This document shows, piece by piece, positions 9,883 through 36,199 of a stretch of 44,205 nucleotides of DNA (position 1 is its first letter; each line of letters starts with the position of its first letter). This DNA comes from a virus. The notes under the pieces were generated by a model, which made no database searches, had not been told where the DNA came from, and worked only from the letters and a program-made list of their open reading frames with translations. A program made the position numbers and the translations under genes. The DNA lies in the IMG/VR virus record IMGVR_UViG_3300008108_000170, positions 1 through 44,205 of that record; one strand, 5' to 3'.

Positions 9883-9924
9883 ATGAAAACAACAACCACA
9901 CCGAGGGAGGTCGCTAATGGCTAA
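9883..9924 (+). CDS. Leaderless 13-residue leader peptide
   Basis: ATG exactly 7 nt after the -10 opens MKTTTTPREVANG. The stop TAA lies within the start region of the next gene: its last codons hold the GGGAGG ribosome site and overlap ATG 9917. The arrangement suggests a leaderless mini-ORF that delivers ribosomes to, or controls, the downstream gene. A matching case lies at 11550. Confidence 0.6.
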   Translation: MKTTTTPREVANG

Positions 9925-11354: not shown

Positions 11355-11560
11355 TCAAGACGGCGGAAGCGGGACCGCTGAACAAGCGCAACCGCTTCTG
11401 CCAACTTGGCTTCGGCTTCGTCTAACTGAGCGAACACTCTCTCCATTTCAGCAGACAACTCAGCGAGACGCCGTTGGCGGCCCCGCTGCCGTGCTTCGTC
11501 TAGTGAGTGCAGGTTGTCATTGTCGCTAATAACGGATACCCTTCTACTTATGAAACACAC
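11351..11560 (-). CDS. Possible small coiled-coil protein (start uncertain)
   Basis: The minus strand stays open here and encodes a heptad-like helix (LSAEMERVFAQLDEAEAKLA) ending in RSRFRRLD. The tail-to-tail CTAG overlap with the plus gene is typical of real convergent genes. The outer start at 11560 lies in promoter and leader-peptide sequence of the next unit and is unlikely; the true start is probably within 11440-11510. It could be a chance frame. Confidence 0.3.
   Translation of the reverse strand: MCFISRRVSVISDNDNLHSLDEARQRGRQRRLAELSAEMERVFAQLDEAEAKLAEAVALVQRSRFRRLD
11514..11542 (+). promoter_or_regulatory. Repeated promoter
   Basis: -35 TTGTCA, 17-nt spacer with AATAACGG, -10 TACCCT, 7 nt to ATG 11550. 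Confidence 0.9.
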
Positions 11561-11582
11561 AACACGGAAAGCAGGCTTCTAA
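11550..11582 (+). CDS. Leaderless 10-residue leader peptide
   Basis: MKHTTRKAGF starts exactly 7 nt after the -10. Its TAA overlaps the next ATG (TAATG). It resembles the mini-ORF at 9883 in position and in its short basic/Thr-rich sequence. Confidence 0.6.
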   Translation: MKHTTRKAGF

Positions 11583-13589: not shown

Positions 13590-13618
13590 ACGGTATCCGT
13601 TATTACGCCTAATTCCAA
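13590..13618 (-). promoter_or_regulatory. Repeated promoter, minus strand (divergent pair)
   Basis: -35 TTGGAA, 17-nt spacer with AATAACGG, -10 TACCGT, 7 nt to ATG 13582. Only 3 bp separate it from the divergent copy at 13622. Confidence 0.88.
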
Positions 13619-13621
13619 CTG

Positions 13622-13650
13622 TTGCTTTTGTACCTAATAACGGATACAGT
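13622..13650 (+). promoter_or_regulatory. Repeated promoter feeding a structured leader
   Basis: -35 TTGCTT, 17-nt spacer with AATAACGG, -10 TACAGT. No start codon follows at 7 nt; the predicted first base is G13658 of the structured leader. Confidence 0.88.
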
Positions 13651-13657
13651 AATAGTC

Positions 13658-13731
13658 GTCACCAACAACCACAAGTTTTGCCAACGGGGGCAGGGTGACA
13701 GTCCCCGTTGGCAAGGAGTTTTTGCCTTATT
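13658..13731 (+). promoter_or_regulatory. Structured 5' leader, copy A (pseudoknot)
   Basis: The predicted RNA begins GUCACCAACAACCACAAG, identical over 18 nt to copy B at 15244. Then comes a perfect 12-bp hairpin: TTGCCAACGGGG (13678-13689) with CCCCGTTGGCAA (13703-13714). Its loop holds GGUGAC (13694-13699), complementary to the first six bases, so a pseudoknot is possible. The AAGGAG ribosome site (13713-13718) overlaps the 3' strand, so folding could control translation. Confidence 0.75.
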
Positions 13732-13914
13732 ATGGATACCCTGATGAGAAAAGCATGGAGCATAGTCGGATACACCTATGAGGGTGCTTACTATTGCTTC
13801 GCCTGCGTTGAGCGCAAGGCAATAGACCACAAGCCTGCGGTGCGAGACGAGCCTTCGCCAGTGTTTTTGAGCGACGAGCATGACTTCACCTGCGAGAAGT
13901 GCGGAAGGCGGTAA
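13732..13914 (+). CDS. Small zinc-finger protein under structured leader
   Basis: A 60-residue protein with CFAC near residue 20 and CEKC close to the C-terminus, two CxxC pairs for a zinc site. ATG 13732 is the nearest in-frame start to the AAGGAG at 13713; ATG 13744 (MRKAWS) is an alternative. A degenerate copy of the promoter core (TTATTATGGATACCCT) lies across the start. Translation is probably governed by the upstream pseudoknot leader. Function unknown. Confidence 0.68.
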   Translation: MDTLMRKAWSIVGYTYEGAYYCFACVERKAIDHKPAVRDEPSPVFLSDEHDFTCEKCGRR

Positions 13915-13952
13915 GCCCCCGCACGGGCAGCCCCGCCGCCAATATCCGTAGG

Positions 13953-13981
13953 TTGTGAATATACCCAATAACGGATACAGT
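13953..13981 (+). promoter_or_regulatory. Repeated promoter
   Basis: -35 TTGTGA, spacer with CCCAATAACGG, -10 TACAGT, 7 nt to ATG 13989. Confidence 0.9.
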
Positions 13982-13988
13982 GGTACTC

Positions 13989-14126
13989 ATGAAACGCAGG
14001 TCATGGAACGAGATAGACCGTCAGGCTTTTGCTGATGGCGCACGAACCCGTGCTACTACTATCCCCGATAAGCGCAAGGCTAAAGTAAAGCGGGCTTGCC
14101 GTGACTTCAGATGGAAGGCATTATGA
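13989..14126 (+). CDS. Small basic protein
   Basis: A 45-residue, strongly basic protein beginning MKRRSWNEIDRQAF, with PDKRKAKVKRACRDFRWKAL at the end. Charge suggests nucleic-acid binding. Leaderless start; its TGA overlaps the next ATG (ATGA). Confidence 0.65.
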   Translation: MKRRSWNEIDRQAFADGARTRATTIPDKRKAKVKRACRDFRWKAL

Positions 14127-14416
14127 GTAGCAAACTCCCCCCTAAAGAAACCACCCGTGCCGATATTGAGGCGTACCTAGAAGAGCGGGGCGAGCATGCT
14201 CTGCTGATGGACGGCTTTGATGAGGCGCTAATTGGCTTTTCCCAACGGATAAACGAGCCACTTCTAGCCGTGTACTCATACAACACAATGGTTGATGTCT
14301 GCGTATTCCGAGATGGAATGTCTTACGAAGAGGCAGAGGAGTACATTGAGTACAACTGTATTGGTGCTTGGGTTGGCGAACAGACACCCATTATCGTTCA
14401 GGACTTCCTGCGCTGA
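14123..14416 (+). CDS. Hypothetical protein
   Basis: A 97-residue protein starting MSSKLPPKETTRADIEAYL, with GFDEALIGFSQRINEPLLAVYSY and GMSYEEAEEYIEYN. The latter pattern (A-V-Y-x-Y-x-x-M, then E-E-A-x-E-Y-x-x-x-N) is common in phage hypothetical proteins of this size. I cannot assign a function. The ATG overlaps the preceding stop. Confidence 0.75.
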   Translation: MSSKLPPKETTRADIEAYLEERGEHALLMDGFDEALIGFSQRINEPLLAVYSYNTMVDVCVFRDGMSYEEAEEYIEYNCIGAWVGEQTPIIVQDFLR

Positions 14417-14445
14417 GGAGCCCCGCCCCTCAGTTGCTCCCGTAG

Positions 14446-14474
14446 TTGCGTTTGTACCCAATAACGGATACAGT
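14446..14474 (+). promoter_or_regulatory. Repeated promoter
   Basis: -35 TTGCGT, spacer with CCCAATAACGG, -10 TACAGT, 7 nt to ATG 14482. Confidence 0.9.
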
Positions 14475-14481
14475 AATTCCC

Positions 14482-14814
14482 ATGAACGAAATAGCAATAG
14501 AACAAGCATTTAGGCTGTCGCATATCGCAAAAGAGTTATTTACTGCGTTGCGAACAACAGACTGCCTCTGCGTTGAGACTGAAGAGTACACCGAGTACCA
14601 AAAACGCTCTCAACAGTATGTCGCAGACAACACAACGGCGATGTCAGATATGTGGGAGAGGTCAGCAAAGCGCATTGAGTTCTTCATTACAGAGCCATTT
14701 GAGGGCAAAGAAGTAGAAGTTGAGTGCAAACGCTGTATGGCTATGGAGAAGTACGAAGACTTCTGCAGTGAAGACAATGGTGACGCCTATCTCTACATTG
14801 ACGGTCATGACTGA
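14482..14814 (+). CDS. Hypothetical acidic protein
   Basis: A 110-residue protein, mostly helical and acidic, with CKRC near residue 82 and another Cys nine residues later; an incomplete zinc site is possible. Not recognised. Single-gene unit followed directly by a boundary repeat. Confidence 0.72.
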   Translation: MNEIAIEQAFRLSHIAKELFTALRTTDCLCVETEEYTEYQKRSQQYVADNTTAMSDMWERSAKRIEFFITEPFEGKEVEVECKRCMAMEKYEDFCSEDNGDAYLYIDGHD

Positions 14815-14818
14815 AGTC

Positions 14819-14845
14819 CTTTCCGCCACCGTAACTCTTAGCGCA
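14819..14845 (+). repeat. Boundary repeat
   Basis: CTTTCCGCCACCGT, then AACTCTTAGCGCA; AGCCCCG follows at about 14863. Confidence 0.85.
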
Positions 14846-14902
14846 AACACACTTTCCCCTGGAGCCCCGAACTTGATTAGAAACTTTATGTTTAGGCACA
14901 GG

Positions 14903-14931
14903 TTGTCAATGGGACAAATAACGGATACGAT
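14903..14931 (+). promoter_or_regulatory. Repeated promoter for XRE gene
   Basis: -35 TTGTCA, spacer with ACAAATAACGG, -10 TACGAT, 7 nt to ATG 14939. Confidence 0.88.
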
Positions 14932-14938
14932 TTCTGGT

Positions 14939-15151
14939 ATGGAAACAAAACTCAAAAAAGTAACGCAACGACTAAAAGCCTTCAGAATTGAGGCGGGGCT
15001 AACTCAGCAACAACTCGCTGACTATGCTGGCATTGACCGCAAGACGGTGAACCGCATTGAGAATGGGCACTTCAGTCCTAACATTGAGACACTATTGCGC
15101 TTGTGCGTAGTCGTGTCAAAGAAGCCAACCGAAGTGTTTGAGGGTATCTAA
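14939..15151 (+). CDS. XRE-family (Cro/CI-like) HTH regulator
   Basis: A 70-residue single-domain regulator. LKAFRIEAGLTQQQLADYAG followed by IDRKTVNRIENGHFSPNIETLLRL is the classical XRE helix-turn-helix: recognition helix around DRKTVNRIE, then the N-x-x-x-x-P-x-x-x-T-L turn. It has no sensor or dimerisation domain, so it resembles Cro-type proteins. The start is fixed by a repeated promoter whose spacer differs slightly (ACAAATAACGG). It is one candidate for the protein that reads the repeated promoter core; that link is inference. Confidence 0.9.
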   Translation: METKLKKVTQRLKAFRIEAGLTQQQLADYAGIDRKTVNRIENGHFSPNIETLLRLCVVVSKKPTEVFEGI

Positions 15152-15207
15152 CACAGCGGGGCCGCCGCGTCGTCTTCAGACGCACGCACGAGTGGTTGAG
15201 TGGCAGG

Positions 15208-15236
15208 TTGTAAATGTACCTAATAACGGATACAGT
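15208..15236 (+). promoter_or_regulatory. Repeated promoter feeding a structured leader
   Basis: -35 TTGTAA, 17-nt spacer with AATAACGG, -10 TACAGT. The predicted first base is G15244 of leader copy B. Confidence 0.88.
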
Positions 15237-15243
15237 TATGAAT

Positions 15244-15310
15244 GTCACCAACAACCACAAGATTTGGGTGGCAGGGGTACGGTGACTGCCCTTGCCACCT
15301 AGGAGTTCTT
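15244..15310 (+). promoter_or_regulatory. Structured 5' leader, copy B (pseudoknot)
   Basis: Starts with the same 18 nt as copy A (GUCACCAACAACCACAAG). The hairpin is GGTGGCAGGGG (15267-15277) with CCCTTGCCACC (15289-15299), 11 bp with one G-U, a different sequence from copy A but equally paired. The loop carries GGUGAC (15281-15286), able to pair with the 5' GUCACC. AGGAG (15301-15305) follows the stem at once and ATG is 5 nt further. Confidence 0.78.
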
Positions 15311-15424
15311 ATGACACCTGATGAAGCAATAGCAAGCAACCGCTACGACGAGTGGCTGTGTTGCAAGAGGTGCGGGGAGTCATTCCCAAAGCACGACCGC
15401 TGGTGCGACAATCCCGACAAGTAA
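15311..15424 (+). CDS. Small zinc-ribbon protein under structured leader
   Basis: A 37-residue protein: CCKRCGESF and a later Cys (RWCDN) give a knuckle-like zinc site. The start has AGGAG at 5-nt spacing. Together with 13732-13914 it is one of two small cysteine proteins controlled by the twin pseudoknot leaders, which suggests related regulation. Function unknown. Confidence 0.72.
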   Translation: MTPDEAIASNRYDEWLCCKRCGESFPKHDRWCDNPDK

Positions 15425-17756: not shown

Positions 17757-17940
17757 AAAGAAAAAGAAGCACCTGAAACTAGTTCCACCCGTGGCTGAGT
17801 GGCAGCGGTGGCCCCGCGGTTACGAACCAACCGAAGAAGAGTTGGCGAAGTTGAGCGAAGAGGAGTGGATTGACTACATGAAAAATGAGTTCAGGCGTTC
17901 ACAAGAGAACCACCCTGCAGGTTGGAACTGTACCCAATAA
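17746..17940 (+). CDS. Small protein with basic N-terminus (GTG start)
   Basis: A 64-residue protein: MAGKKKKKHLKLVPP then an acidic helical segment (TEEELAKLSEEEWIDYMKNEF). The GTG at 17746 overlaps the previous gene by 11 nt. The stop TAA lies in the spacer of the next promoter. Confidence 0.68.
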   Translation: MAGKKKKKHLKLVPPVAEWQRWPRGYEPTEEELAKLSEEEWIDYMKNEFRRSQENHPAGWNCTQ

Positions 17941-17950
17941 CGGATACACT
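17922..17950 (+). promoter_or_regulatory. Repeated promoter driving a non-coding RNA
   Basis: -35 TTGGAA, spacer with CCCAATAACGG, -10 TACACT. No start codon follows; the downstream sequence is structured and ends in a terminator. Confidence 0.88.
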
Positions 17951-17957
17951 GATATTT

Positions 17958-18082
17958 AGGTAGGGAGACTGAAGAGTGTCCCATAACGCTAATCAGGGAA
18001 TGGAAATGTTCCCTGACAGGCTCTCTCTACCGAAACCCGATTACCGTCCTTGTTAGTAGCATTACGGTAGTCGGGTTTTTTA
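17958..18082 (+). ncRNA. Candidate structured phage sRNA (about 125 nt)
   Basis: Starts 7 nt after a repeated promoter's -10. GGTAGGGAGA (17959-17968) pairs with TCTCTCTACC (18022-18031) and encloses a perfect 8-bp hairpin, TCAGGGAA (17993-18000) with TTCCCTGA (18009-18016). An intrinsic terminator follows (18036-18081). There is no credible reading frame. The closed multi-stem form with its own promoter and terminator is what an sRNA gene looks like. I cannot match it to a known family. Confidence 0.78.
18036..18081 (+). terminator. Intrinsic terminator of the sRNA
   Basis: CCCGATTACCGT pairs with ACGGTAGTCGGG (one mismatch), loop 16 nt, then six T. Confidence 0.88.
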
Positions 18083-18120
18083 TTGCCCGCTATTCAGAAA
18101 CACGGGGCTAAGATGCGGCC

Positions 18121-20295: not shown

Positions 20296-20631
20296 TTGGA
20301 CAGGTATACCTACACACGAATTAGAACCATGGTGCGCACCGTTTTTTGGGCGTCGCTGGTCGGCGGGACTATTTGGTTGATGTTTGATTTCCGCAATCGC
20401 CTAGAGGAATACACATGCGATTCAGCAAATGACAACACAGTCGTAAACCAAGGCGATACTCTGTGGCGAATCGTCACTGTGAACTGCAGTGGCAATCTCA
20501 GGTCAGCCGTTGACGACCATGTTGAGTTCTACGGAACTGATATTCAGGTTGGACAGGCAATCGTCCTGAAGCAAAACCAAGATTGCGAACTGCGCCGTAC
20601 TGACGGCGGTCAAGTGATGATGGAGTGCTGA
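20296..20631 (+). CDS. Membrane-anchored LysM-like protein
   Basis: A 111-residue protein: basic N-terminus, a transmembrane helix (VFWASLVGGTIWLMF, about 15-32), then an extracytoplasmic LysM-like domain (VVNQGDTLWRIV ... IQVGQAIVL, about 52-100). LysM binds peptidoglycan. The layout, one N-terminal helix plus LysM, is that of small cell-division inhibitors such as YneA, so interference with host division is a reasonable guess. TTG start with AAAGGAG 5 nt upstream. Confidence 0.72.
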   Translation: MDRYTYTRIRTMVRTVFWASLVGGTIWLMFDFRNRLEEYTCDSANDNTVVNQGDTLWRIVTVNCSGNLRSAVDDHVEFYGTDIQVGQAIVLKQNQDCELRRTDGGQVMMEC

Positions 20632-21078: not shown

Positions 21079-22005
21079 ATGAATATCTACCATAACGATA
21101 AGTACAACGGAACAGAAGTGGACTTTGAGACATTTCAGAAGTCTCGGTTCATTGCTGACGCAATTCGTGCAAACCTCATTTCTCCTTACGACTTACAAGA
21201 CCCAAAGTCAATGACGCCTATGGCGCATGTATGGGTAAAGAACAACATCACACCCGATTACTACAATGCGCTCATGACTGGCACGCCGTCATACTTGGCT
21301 TCATCAAACGGATTCCCTTGGGACGAGGGATTTATGCCAATGGTAATCAACTCAACTGCGGGCATTATGCAGGCAGTGGTAGATGTCGTCTCCGAAGGTG
21401 GGGTATCCGTGTCATTGTCTTGCGGAATGCATCACGCGGGGCCTGGAATGGGCGAAGGTTATTGCACTGTTAATTCATTGGCTATCGGCGCAATCTTTGC
21501 TAGTCAAGAGTTCAAGCGCAAAGTTACAGTTCTTGACTTGGACGCTCATTGTGGCGGTGGAACATACAAGTACATCTTGCAAGAGCGTGGCTTCCGTAGG
21601 AACTTGATAAATCAAGTAGATGTGTCTACATCTCCGTTTGACACCTACAGACCGACAAGCAAGAATGACTACTTGGATATTGTCACCTCTTCACACGGCA
21701 AAGCACCACAAGCCGAAAAGGACAGGCAGTACTTGGACGCAGTAGAAAAGGCATTGGAACACATTGCCTCGGATACCGAAATCGTTTTCTACAACGCAGG
21801 CGTAGACATCTACCCAGCAATATCTCCATCATGCGTGAAAGCCCGTGAGGAAATGGTTGCAGAAGCATTGCGTGACAAGCCAACGGTAATCGTCATGGCA
21901 GGCGGTTACGGAACAATGGAAGAAATCGTCCCACTCCACATGGCTACCTTGAGTTCATTCGCACGGCGGGACTCCATGGCGCCATGTTCGGTTTTGGGGC
22001 AATAA
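21079..22005 (+). CDS. Histone-deacetylase-fold amidohydrolase (AcuC/HDAC-like)
   Basis: A 308-residue enzyme of the arginase/deacetylase superfamily. GMHHAGPGMGEGYC (about 116-129) holds the active His-His pair. VLDLDAHCGGGT (about 151-162) gives the Asp and His zinc ligands of the D-x-H motif, and YNAGVDIYP (about 237) the third ligand. MAGGYGT (about 273) supplies the transition-state Tyr. One usual His after D-x-H is Cys here. Family members remove acetyl or acyl groups from lysines, polyamines or acetoin-pathway proteins; the substrate is unknown. Led by a repeated promoter; its stop lies in the next promoter's spacer. Confidence 0.85.
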   Translation: MNIYHNDKYNGTEVDFETFQKSRFIADAIRANLISPYDLQDPKSMTPMAHVWVKNNITPDYYNALMTGTPSYLASSNGFPWDEGFMPMVINSTAGIMQAVVDVVSEGGVSVSLSCGMHHAGPGMGEGYCTVNSLAIGAIFASQEFKRKVTVLDLDAHCGGGTYKYILQERGFRRNLINQVDVSTSPFDTYRPTSKNDYLDIVTSSHGKAPQAEKDRQYLDAVEKALEHIASDTEIVFYNAGVDIYPAISPSCVKAREEMVAEALRDKPTVIVMAGGYGTMEEIVPLHMATLSSFARRDSMAPCSVLGQ

Positions 22006-34995: not shown

Positions 34996-36033
34996 CTAAA
35001 GCACGGTGGTGATGATATGGCCCTCTATTTGGTCCGCAGGTATCGGATAGTCCACCACTAGTGCGCGTTGTATCCATCGGTCGGTTCCGTCGTATCTGGC
35101 TGCAAAGGGTCGTCTGCCATGCACTCTGATTCGGTTGTTGAGCACCAGCAGGTCCCCGTACTCAAGCACAATGGATTCAATAGAGTTGTTGACCGCTTCT
35201 CGCAGTAGTTCTAGGGCATGGCTTGCTTCTTCATTTTTCCCCGACATGACCGTATCGTCGTATACGAGTTCCAAGCCTTTGCCATTGTCTTGCAGTACTG
35301 ACATAGTGAACTTTGCATCTGTTGCACCATTTTCTTTGAATGATGGGTCTATGCCTGTTTCAAACCATGGCTGTTTTAGTATCTCTATAGTTTCAGGGGA
35401 TAGTTTTCCCATGATTTCGTTAAGAGATGCATATGTAGTATGCGCCGCGCTGTCACCTCTCAAACACAGCAGGAGAAGGTATGAGGGCTTGTACGGGTGG
35501 AATGCCGTCTCTGTATGCAGAGCCAGTTCAGCCTTAGATGATGAACTGATTTGCTCGGTCTCATTCTTTTTGACTGGCAGCAGGTTCTGAATCAAAGCAC
35601 CCTTTTGCTCTTGGATGTATCCGATTGGATACCCAAAGTCGCGAGCGTGTTTGAGCAGCACTTGAGTTGCTGGCATGTCTGGTATGCCGTAAGGGGACGC
35701 AGGGGTAGGTGGAATTAGGTCATTGACAATCTTGAGTATAGTCAACTCAACATCCATGCTATTAGATGTATAAACATCTATCCGTACATGTGCTGGGACT
35801 GGTTCGTCAAAGATATGGATGGAGATGTGCGAGGTATCCAGCATGAGCGAGCCGATGAGCCCTCGCGCGCCCGCGCGCTTGCTGTAGCGCACGCGCGTAC
35901 CGCCGACACGGTGAACGCCGATGGTTTCGGCAATACCCTTGAGGAACTTGCGCAGTTGCCACTTACTGGTGATAGGAAATGCTGTCTCGGCATTAATCAT
36001 CAAATGGTTATGAGAGTACTTCTTCTTTGCCAT
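34996..36033 (-). CDS. SpeD-like domain fused to clavaminate-synthase-like 2OG oxygenase
   Basis: A 345-residue fusion (355 if it starts at 36063). Residues about 8-105 resemble S-adenosylmethionine decarboxylase: GLIGSLMLDTSHISIHIFDE aligns with the family's G-V-x-G ... E-S-H-x-x-I-H. The pyruvoyl Ser and the His are kept, but the Glu before Ser is Thr and the catalytic Cys of FTCG is Ser (YTSNS). The rest is an Fe(II)/2-oxoglutarate oxygenase of the clavaminate-synthase/VioC group: LHTETAFHPYKPSYLLLLCLRG with iron ligands H-x-E, and LVLNNRIRVHGRRPF ... DRWIQRALVV with the distal His and 2OG-binding Arg. It probably hydroxylates an amino acid or related amine; the decarboxylase may be altered or inactive. 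Confidence 0.8.
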   Translation of the reverse strand: MAKKKYSHNHLMINAETAFPITSKWQLRKFLKGIAETIGVHRVGGTRVRYSKRAGARGLIGSLMLDTSHISIHIFDEPVPAHVRIDVYTSNSMDVELTILKIVNDLIPPTPASPYGIPDMPATQVLLKHARDFGYPIGYIQEQKGALIQNLLPVKKNETEQISSSSKAELALHTETAFHPYKPSYLLLLCLRGDSAAHTTYASLNEIMGKLSPETIEILKQPWFETGIDPSFKENGATDAKFTMSVLQDNGKGLELVYDDTVMSGKNEEASHALELLREAVNNSIESIVLEYGDLLVLNNRIRVHGRRPFAARYDGTDRWIQRALVVDYPIPADQIEGHIITTVL

Positions 36034-36199
36034 ATGGATTTTCGGCTTTCTTGATGCAGTCATTCAGGGTTGATTCCGCCCAATAAACAAACTCTTTGAG
36101 GTCGGTTCCTGGGAACGGCAAGCGTAGTACATGCTGAGCAACCATGCGGTTATTAATCGCATCGCCCCTGTAGATGTCAATTTTCAAGCATATACGCAT
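36008..36199 (-). CDS. Hypothetical small protein
   Basis: A 63-residue protein from ATG 36199 (MRICLKIDIYRGDAINNRM), with PFPGTDLKEFVYWAESTLNDC, a short alpha/beta fold. Overlaps both neighbours by 23-26 nt, in a tightly packed minus operon. Not recognised. Confidence 0.6.
   Translation of the reverse strand: MRICLKIDIYRGDAINNRMVAQHVLRLPFPGTDLKEFVYWAESTLNDCIKKAENPYGKEEVLS

Follow-up and report, generated by a model that had tools for sequence, protein, structure and literature searches.

Twin leaders of two small phage genes with a predicted pseudoknot between the mRNA 5' end and a hairpin loop

Why would a phage whose promoter-driven genes seem to be mostly leaderless equip two small genes with one and the same elaborate leader, in which the mRNA's predicted 5' terminus would serve as one strand of a pseudoknot? 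The question arises from the virus record IMGVR_UViG_3300008108_000170, whose 44,205 bases form the window analysed here. The window encodes an SNF2-type helicase, a TOPRIM-type primase/helicase and many small genes. The closest kin of the phage are uncultured IMG/VR contigs; among named phages, the best matches of the helicase are in Arthrobacter phages, with approximately 30% identity. A histone-deacetylase-like protein (21079-22005) and a TauD-like dioxygenase with an N-terminal part similar to S-adenosylmethionine decarboxylase (34996-36063) were also predicted and would be unusual auxiliary metabolic genes. The reading of the two leaders favoured here, to which we give about an even chance, is that they are copies of one phage-specific cis-acting RNA control element, in which docking of the 5' end would keep translation low and/or shield the 5' end.

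One phage promoter type, GTTG-N11-AATAACGG[AG]TANNNT, occurs in approximately 30 copies in the window. An ATG lies 6-7 nt past the TANNNT hexamer at 24 of 30 promoters (exactly 7 nt at 20), and an ATG at such a distance from the promoter is a hallmark of leaderless genes (PMC3160421). Most promoter-driven transcripts of this phage, approximately 24 of 30, seem to be leaderless. The two leaders belong to the few exceptions, and in both copies GTCACC, not ATG, is located exactly 7 nt past TACAGT. Since GTCACC occupies the place of the ATG in the other promoter-driven genes, the mRNA very probably begins with GUCACC, whose first G is the +1 predicted by promoter geometry. The first 18 nt from the leaderless ATGs contain 56% A and 27% C. 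The leader linker AACAACCACAAG has the same A/C-rich make-up, and the leader may be derived from a leaderless gene start.

The promoter GTTG-N11-AATAACGGATANNNT, mostly with leaderless genes, was also found in six other loci (L063, L064, L070, L096, L144 and L176), spread across several distantly related uncultured phages. Two leaderless mini-ORFs of 13 and 10 codons were identified on the plus strand of the window (9883-9924 and 11550-11582). Their stop regions overlap the ATG of the next gene (CTAATGG), and leaderless initiation at these mini-ORFs may feed the downstream genes by coupling.

The common start of the two leaders, reported by the first-pass annotation, was confirmed. Positions 13658-13675 and 15244-15261 carry identical copies of the 18-nt sequence GTCACCAACAACCACAAG, which has no third site in the window, even with three mismatches; the chance expectation is 0.02 matches, and none of 100 shuffles reached two. 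A MAFFT alignment of the two leaders, copies A and B, spans 62 columns and contains one gap of one base. Both leaders contain a hairpin that is far more stable than the folds of shuffled sequences (z of -5.5 and -5.3, with none of 200 shuffles as good), and its stem is 16 bp long in both copies, instead of the 12 bp (A) and 11 bp (B) proposed earlier (Table 1). The hairpin loop has 9 nt in copy A (AGGGUGACA) and, with a 17th pair counted, 7 nt in copy B (CGGUGAC).

Table 1. Features of the two leaders and their genes, in window positions.
Feature	Position	Strand	Basis or remark
Promoter, copy A, GTTG-N11-AATAACGGATACAGT	13621..13650	+	-10 hexamer TACAGT at 13645-13650
GUCACC, copy A; predicted +1, 5' strand of putative pseudoknot helix	13658..13663	+	7 nt past TACAGT
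Linker, copy A; A/C-rich, single-stranded, AACAACCACAAG	13664..13675	+	identical in both copies
16-bp stem, 5' arm, copy A; U tract pairs with Shine-Dalgarno AGG	13676..13691	+	folding, alignment
Loop GGUGAC, copy A; complement of 5' GUCACC	13694..13699	+	descriptor search, alignment
16-bp stem, 3' arm, copy A	13701..13716	+	folding, alignment
Shine-Dalgarno AGGAG, copy A; AGG paired in stem foot	13714..13718	+	13 nt before ATG
Gene A, 60 aa, two CxxC motifs; putative small zinc protein	13732..13914	+	
Promoter, copy B, TACAGT at 15231-15236	15207..15236	+	promoter match
GUCACC, copy B; predicted mRNA 5' end, 5' strand of putative pseudoknot	15244..15249	+	promoter geometry
Linker, copy B; A/C-rich	15250..15261	+	alignment of copies
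16-bp stem, 5' arm, copy B	15263..15278	+	folding, alignment
Loop GGUGAC, copy B	15281..15286	+	descriptor search, alignment
16-bp stem, 3' arm, copy B	15288..15303	+	folding, alignment
Shine-Dalgarno AGGAG, copy B; AGG paired in stem foot	15301..15305	+	5 nt before ATG
Gene B, 37 aa, CC-x2-C...H...C; putative small zinc protein	15311..15424	+	ortholog shares ATG

Other readings of these segments were rejected. An alternative hairpin in copy A (GGCAAG/UUUGCC, -6.3 kcal/mol) is far weaker than the main stem, and no U run follows either stem, as a transcription terminator would have. Copy B is open in frame from an ATG at 15242, but this upstream extension of gene B is non-coding, because the ortholog in L006 starts at ATG 15311; copy A is closed in the frame that matches the open one of copy B.

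The differences between the aligned copies are concentrated in the stem, which contains 15 of the 17; the other two are at the loop edges. The 5' 18 nt, GGUGAC, UUU and AGGAG are constant. All 16 stem pairs are kept in both copies, with none broken by the 15 stem changes: nine pairs differ, six by two-sided and three by one-sided changes, and seven are unchanged. The earlier statement that the stems differ almost completely while remaining paired therefore holds for the pairing and overstates the difference. When the 16-bp stem and the 6-bp knot are taken together, all 44 alignment cells are in standard pairs, and pairing falls to 36-52% once the partners are slid by one to three columns. The observed pairing values were reached by 5 of 500 shuffles, with two sequences being too few for a formal family covariation test. 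The strong covariation claimed at first concerns the stem, with its six two-sided changes; the GUCACC/GGUGAC helix is invariant and without covariation, which counts against the favoured reading.

The two segments might instead be a DNA-level inverted operator (GTCACC-N30/31-GGTGAC) or a duplicated remnant of a leaderless gene start that is now functionless. Over 52 nt, promoter included, the copies are 88% identical, and the linker AACAACCACA resembles the A/C-rich leaderless starts described above, for example that at 9883. However, free drift would not preserve 16 of 16 stem pairs while nine of them change, nor would it leave 18 of 18 positions identical in the 5' segment beside only 2 of 7 in the adjoining spacer ahead of +1. 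We consider an explanation of this kind quite unlikely.

The putative pseudoknot helix itself is backed by complementarity and by conservation beside strongly diverged sequence, rather than by covariation. The chance that a given 7-13-nt loop holds the complement of the 5' hexamer is p ~0.0005-0.002. In a collection of 786 natural GTCACC...GGTGAC pairs from viral and bacterial DNA, stem scores reach 9.5 at the 99th percentile, compared to 19 and 18.5 for the two leaders. Stacking of the 6-bp helix amounts to -12.2 kcal/mol, and in a simple pseudoknot energy model the estimated gain when the 5' hexamer docks is about -5 to -7 kcal/mol, consistent with the initial suggestion that the 5' GUCACC could dock in the loop.

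The same conserved loop could instead be part of an operator, in which a phage RNA-binding protein recognises the loop together with the single-stranded 18-nt segment and acts on both genes as a repressor or an activator, the complementarity being secondary. The T4 gene 43 hairpin operator likewise combines a conserved loop with a variable stem at the ribosome site (PMC3014915), and one leader on two unrelated genes is what a small regulon would have. In contrast to the gene 43 site, the loop in the window complements the mRNA's own 5' end, for which the chance value given above is low, and neither a known binding protein nor a candidate protein was identified. An operator of this type is unlikely.

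The ribosome site is located at the foot of the stem, as the first-pass annotation had noted. In both copies the AGG of the Shine-Dalgarno sequence forms the lowest three stem pairs with a U tract (UUU) as partner. In the nested fold AGGAG and the AUG are mostly paired in both leaders, with a mean unpaired probability of ~0.3-0.4, and the Shine-Dalgarno sequence is sequestered in this sense in both copies. Docking barely alters the accessibility of AGGAG in the nested fold; a switching effect is therefore not predicted by energy alone. The spacing from AGGAG to ATG is normal in copy B (5 nt) and long and unusual in copy A (13 nt), the latter being a point against a shared control element.

The knot could also serve as a 5'-end shield only, in which the docked terminus blocks RppH and 5'-end-dependent ribonucleases as a tag for long life, with no translational switch. 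The complementary strand corresponds exactly to the first six transcribed bases from the predicted +1, and RppH and RNase E need single-stranded 5' termini (PMC3997798). In addition, the strongly folded leader of a gene A homolog (L112:60-260, more than 100 nt) could begin with a 5-bp 5'-terminal hairpin, GATGG/CCATC, another hint of 5'-end protection for gene A. Stem-loop stabilisers of the ompA and papA type also have a base-paired 5' terminus (PMC3997798), as is predicted here. In those an adjacent hairpin shields the 5' end, whereas in the window leaders the 5' end would pair with a hairpin loop, the hairpin lying at a distance of 12 nt and including the ribosome site as well. For shielding, a simple 5'-terminal hairpin would be enough, and shielding leaves the conserved placement of AGG in the stem foot unexplained. 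Protection as the sole role seems somewhat improbable.

Both genes were initially described as encoding zinc proteins. The Cys/His spacing of their products agrees with this description, and neither the gene A nor the gene B protein has a Pfam match. Among small riboswitches, a pseudoknot leader whose stem includes the ribosome site is a frequent design, and the shape of the leaders together with the zinc-protein-like products could point to a metabolite- or metal-sensing riboswitch, e.g. for zinc. As in the preQ1-I, SAM-II and fluoride riboswitches, the loop would pair with a strand outside the hairpin, and the ribosome site is included in the fold. Unlike these, the window leaders have a perfect 16-bp stem, occur in a single genome, and contain no conserved unpaired core besides the helix strands. 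A search of the window against Rfam 15 at the gathering threshold gave no match to riboswitch, leader, thermometer or sRNA families, and at E<=10 the region 13600-15400 gave two meaningless matches only (E 3-6), in agreement with the first impression that the element belongs to no known family. The pattern, descriptor and covariance-model searches described below gave no sign of spread to other genomes. The riboswitch-like ligand sensor initially suggested is accordingly not upheld: there is no aptamer-like core, conserved family or second genome, and we regard such a sensor as very improbable.

Further copies were searched for at several levels. A descriptor requiring any +1 hexamer 5-8 nt past TANNNT that can pair with the loop of a hairpin whose foot has a Shine-Dalgarno-like sequence found two matches in 148 relatives' sequences (1.4 Mb, both strands), and both are the window leaders. 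Three block-shuffled control sets gave 0 matches for 6-bp complementarity and 0-2 for 5-bp. A covariance model built from the two copies and searched against 1.17 Mb of collected loci and 32 whole virus records recovered only the two copies (E ~1e-24), with the next-best site at E 0.04-0.06. The rest of IMG/VR was covered by pattern scans only. The exact 18-nt search gave three chance matches, none with the hairpin; the promoter plus GTCACC...GGTGAC matched 108 stretches, all of which lack a comparable stem; and all matches to the tightened GTCACCAACNAC...GGTGAC pattern were due to chance. The matches listed for the same pattern in bacterial genomes were of the coding-sequence 'VTNNH' kind with stem scores <=10, compared to 18.5-19 here. 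More than 100 loci reached via the SNF2-type helicase and the 101-aa gene between A and B contain no such leader, and the near-identical contig G024 begins at window position 20426, past the leader region.

The twin leader has so far been seen in one genome only. A covariance-model search of related phages had been proposed at the outset as one check, with a lack of further copies named as a refuting outcome, and the lack of copies weakens the broad claim. The absence is weak evidence, because there are almost no relatives with genes A and B whose sequence covers this neighbourhood. A distant homolog of gene A is present in L112/G022 (35-38% identity), and the homolog in L112 has a different, folded leader. 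Gene B has one ortholog (L006:4261-4374, 76-81% identity), starting at the same ATG, with a plain short leader AGAGAAAGGAGACACCTG containing AAAGGAG and no hairpin, a further point against the favoured reading. As the leaders of L006 and L112 differ, the twin leader travelled with neither gene in the genomes examined.

Several other structured RNAs were noticed. On the minus strand from 22868 to ~22780, a common-type promoter is followed by ~60 nt without an ORF and ends in a terminator hairpin, CCCCCTGT...ACAGGGGG-ATTTTT. This 80-nt stretch is 98.8-100% identical in L141, L152, L119 and L134, which are only 85-89% identical overall, and is likely a conserved phage small RNA. A second, candidate small RNA is located on the plus strand at 17936-18085, where a promoter precedes ~130 nt of strongly folded sequence (-58.7 kcal/mol) without an ORF; the stretch ends in an intrinsic terminator immediately before the SNF2 helicase gene. 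It matches no Rfam family and has no homolog in the loci examined. In L009 (~12048-11900) and L011 (~2385-2240), a promoter-like site on the minus strand, past the end of the SNF2 helicase gene and on the strand opposite to it, precedes a structured RNA that contains an internal pseudoknot. Its knot helix of 7-9 bp shows compensatory change between the two phages (GCGGTTC/GAACCGC versus AGCGGTTAT/ATAACCGCT), and it has no Rfam match. It appeared similar to the twin leader at first, but was rejected as a further copy, its knot being internal and not at the 5' end.

A close known counterpart is the gene 32 leader of T4, T2 and RB69, likewise in a phage mRNA; its H-type pseudoknot, like the one predicted here, is near the 5' end and precedes the ribosome-binding site (PMC3014915). 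The T4 gene 32 product is a zinc protein (PMC3014915), as the products of genes A and B putatively are. In T4 the knot, 67 nt upstream of the start, is the nucleation site for gp32, which binds cooperatively over an A+U-rich stretch (PMC3014915). By comparison, the window stem runs directly into AGGAG, and the mRNA 5' end itself would be in the knot. Neither an A+U-rich tract at the ribosome site nor an ssDNA-binding product was found, and no gene 32 relative is involved.

Under the favoured reading of a cis-acting control element, also the most economical one, transcription would start, as we infer from the promoter position, at GUCACC. The 62-nt leader, with its conserved 18 nt and compensated hairpin, would form the 16-bp hairpin whose lowest pairs occupy the AGG of AGGAG in the stem foot. 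The 5' GUCACC could then pair with the complementary loop GGUGAC to give an H-type pseudoknot, with the A/C-rich linker spanning it. Once closed, the leader would most likely reduce initiation at both small genes and simultaneously conceal the 5' end from 5'-end-dependent decay, the direction of the effect being presumed. Both messages would thereby be stable and little translated until the knot is opened, and the trigger, if any, may be the ribosome, a phage factor or changed conditions. Control of translation by phage leader pseudoknots is established for T4 gene 32 (PMC3014915), and the shielding of 5' ends from RppH and RNase E is also established (PMC3997798).

Structured phage 5' leaders are already known, and leader pseudoknots that control translation have rarely been documented in phages. 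A docking strand formed by the 5' end of the mRNA itself would be a real novelty, at present a predicted one. More tentatively, and with considerable doubt, the twin leaders may represent a phage translation switch of a new class: the first six nucleotides of the mRNA would be the regulator, and their docking would couple 5'-end protection with closure of the ribosome site, setting two Shine-Dalgarno-led genes apart from a mostly leaderless transcriptome. If this is true, 5'-end protection would be joined to translation control within ~62 nt.
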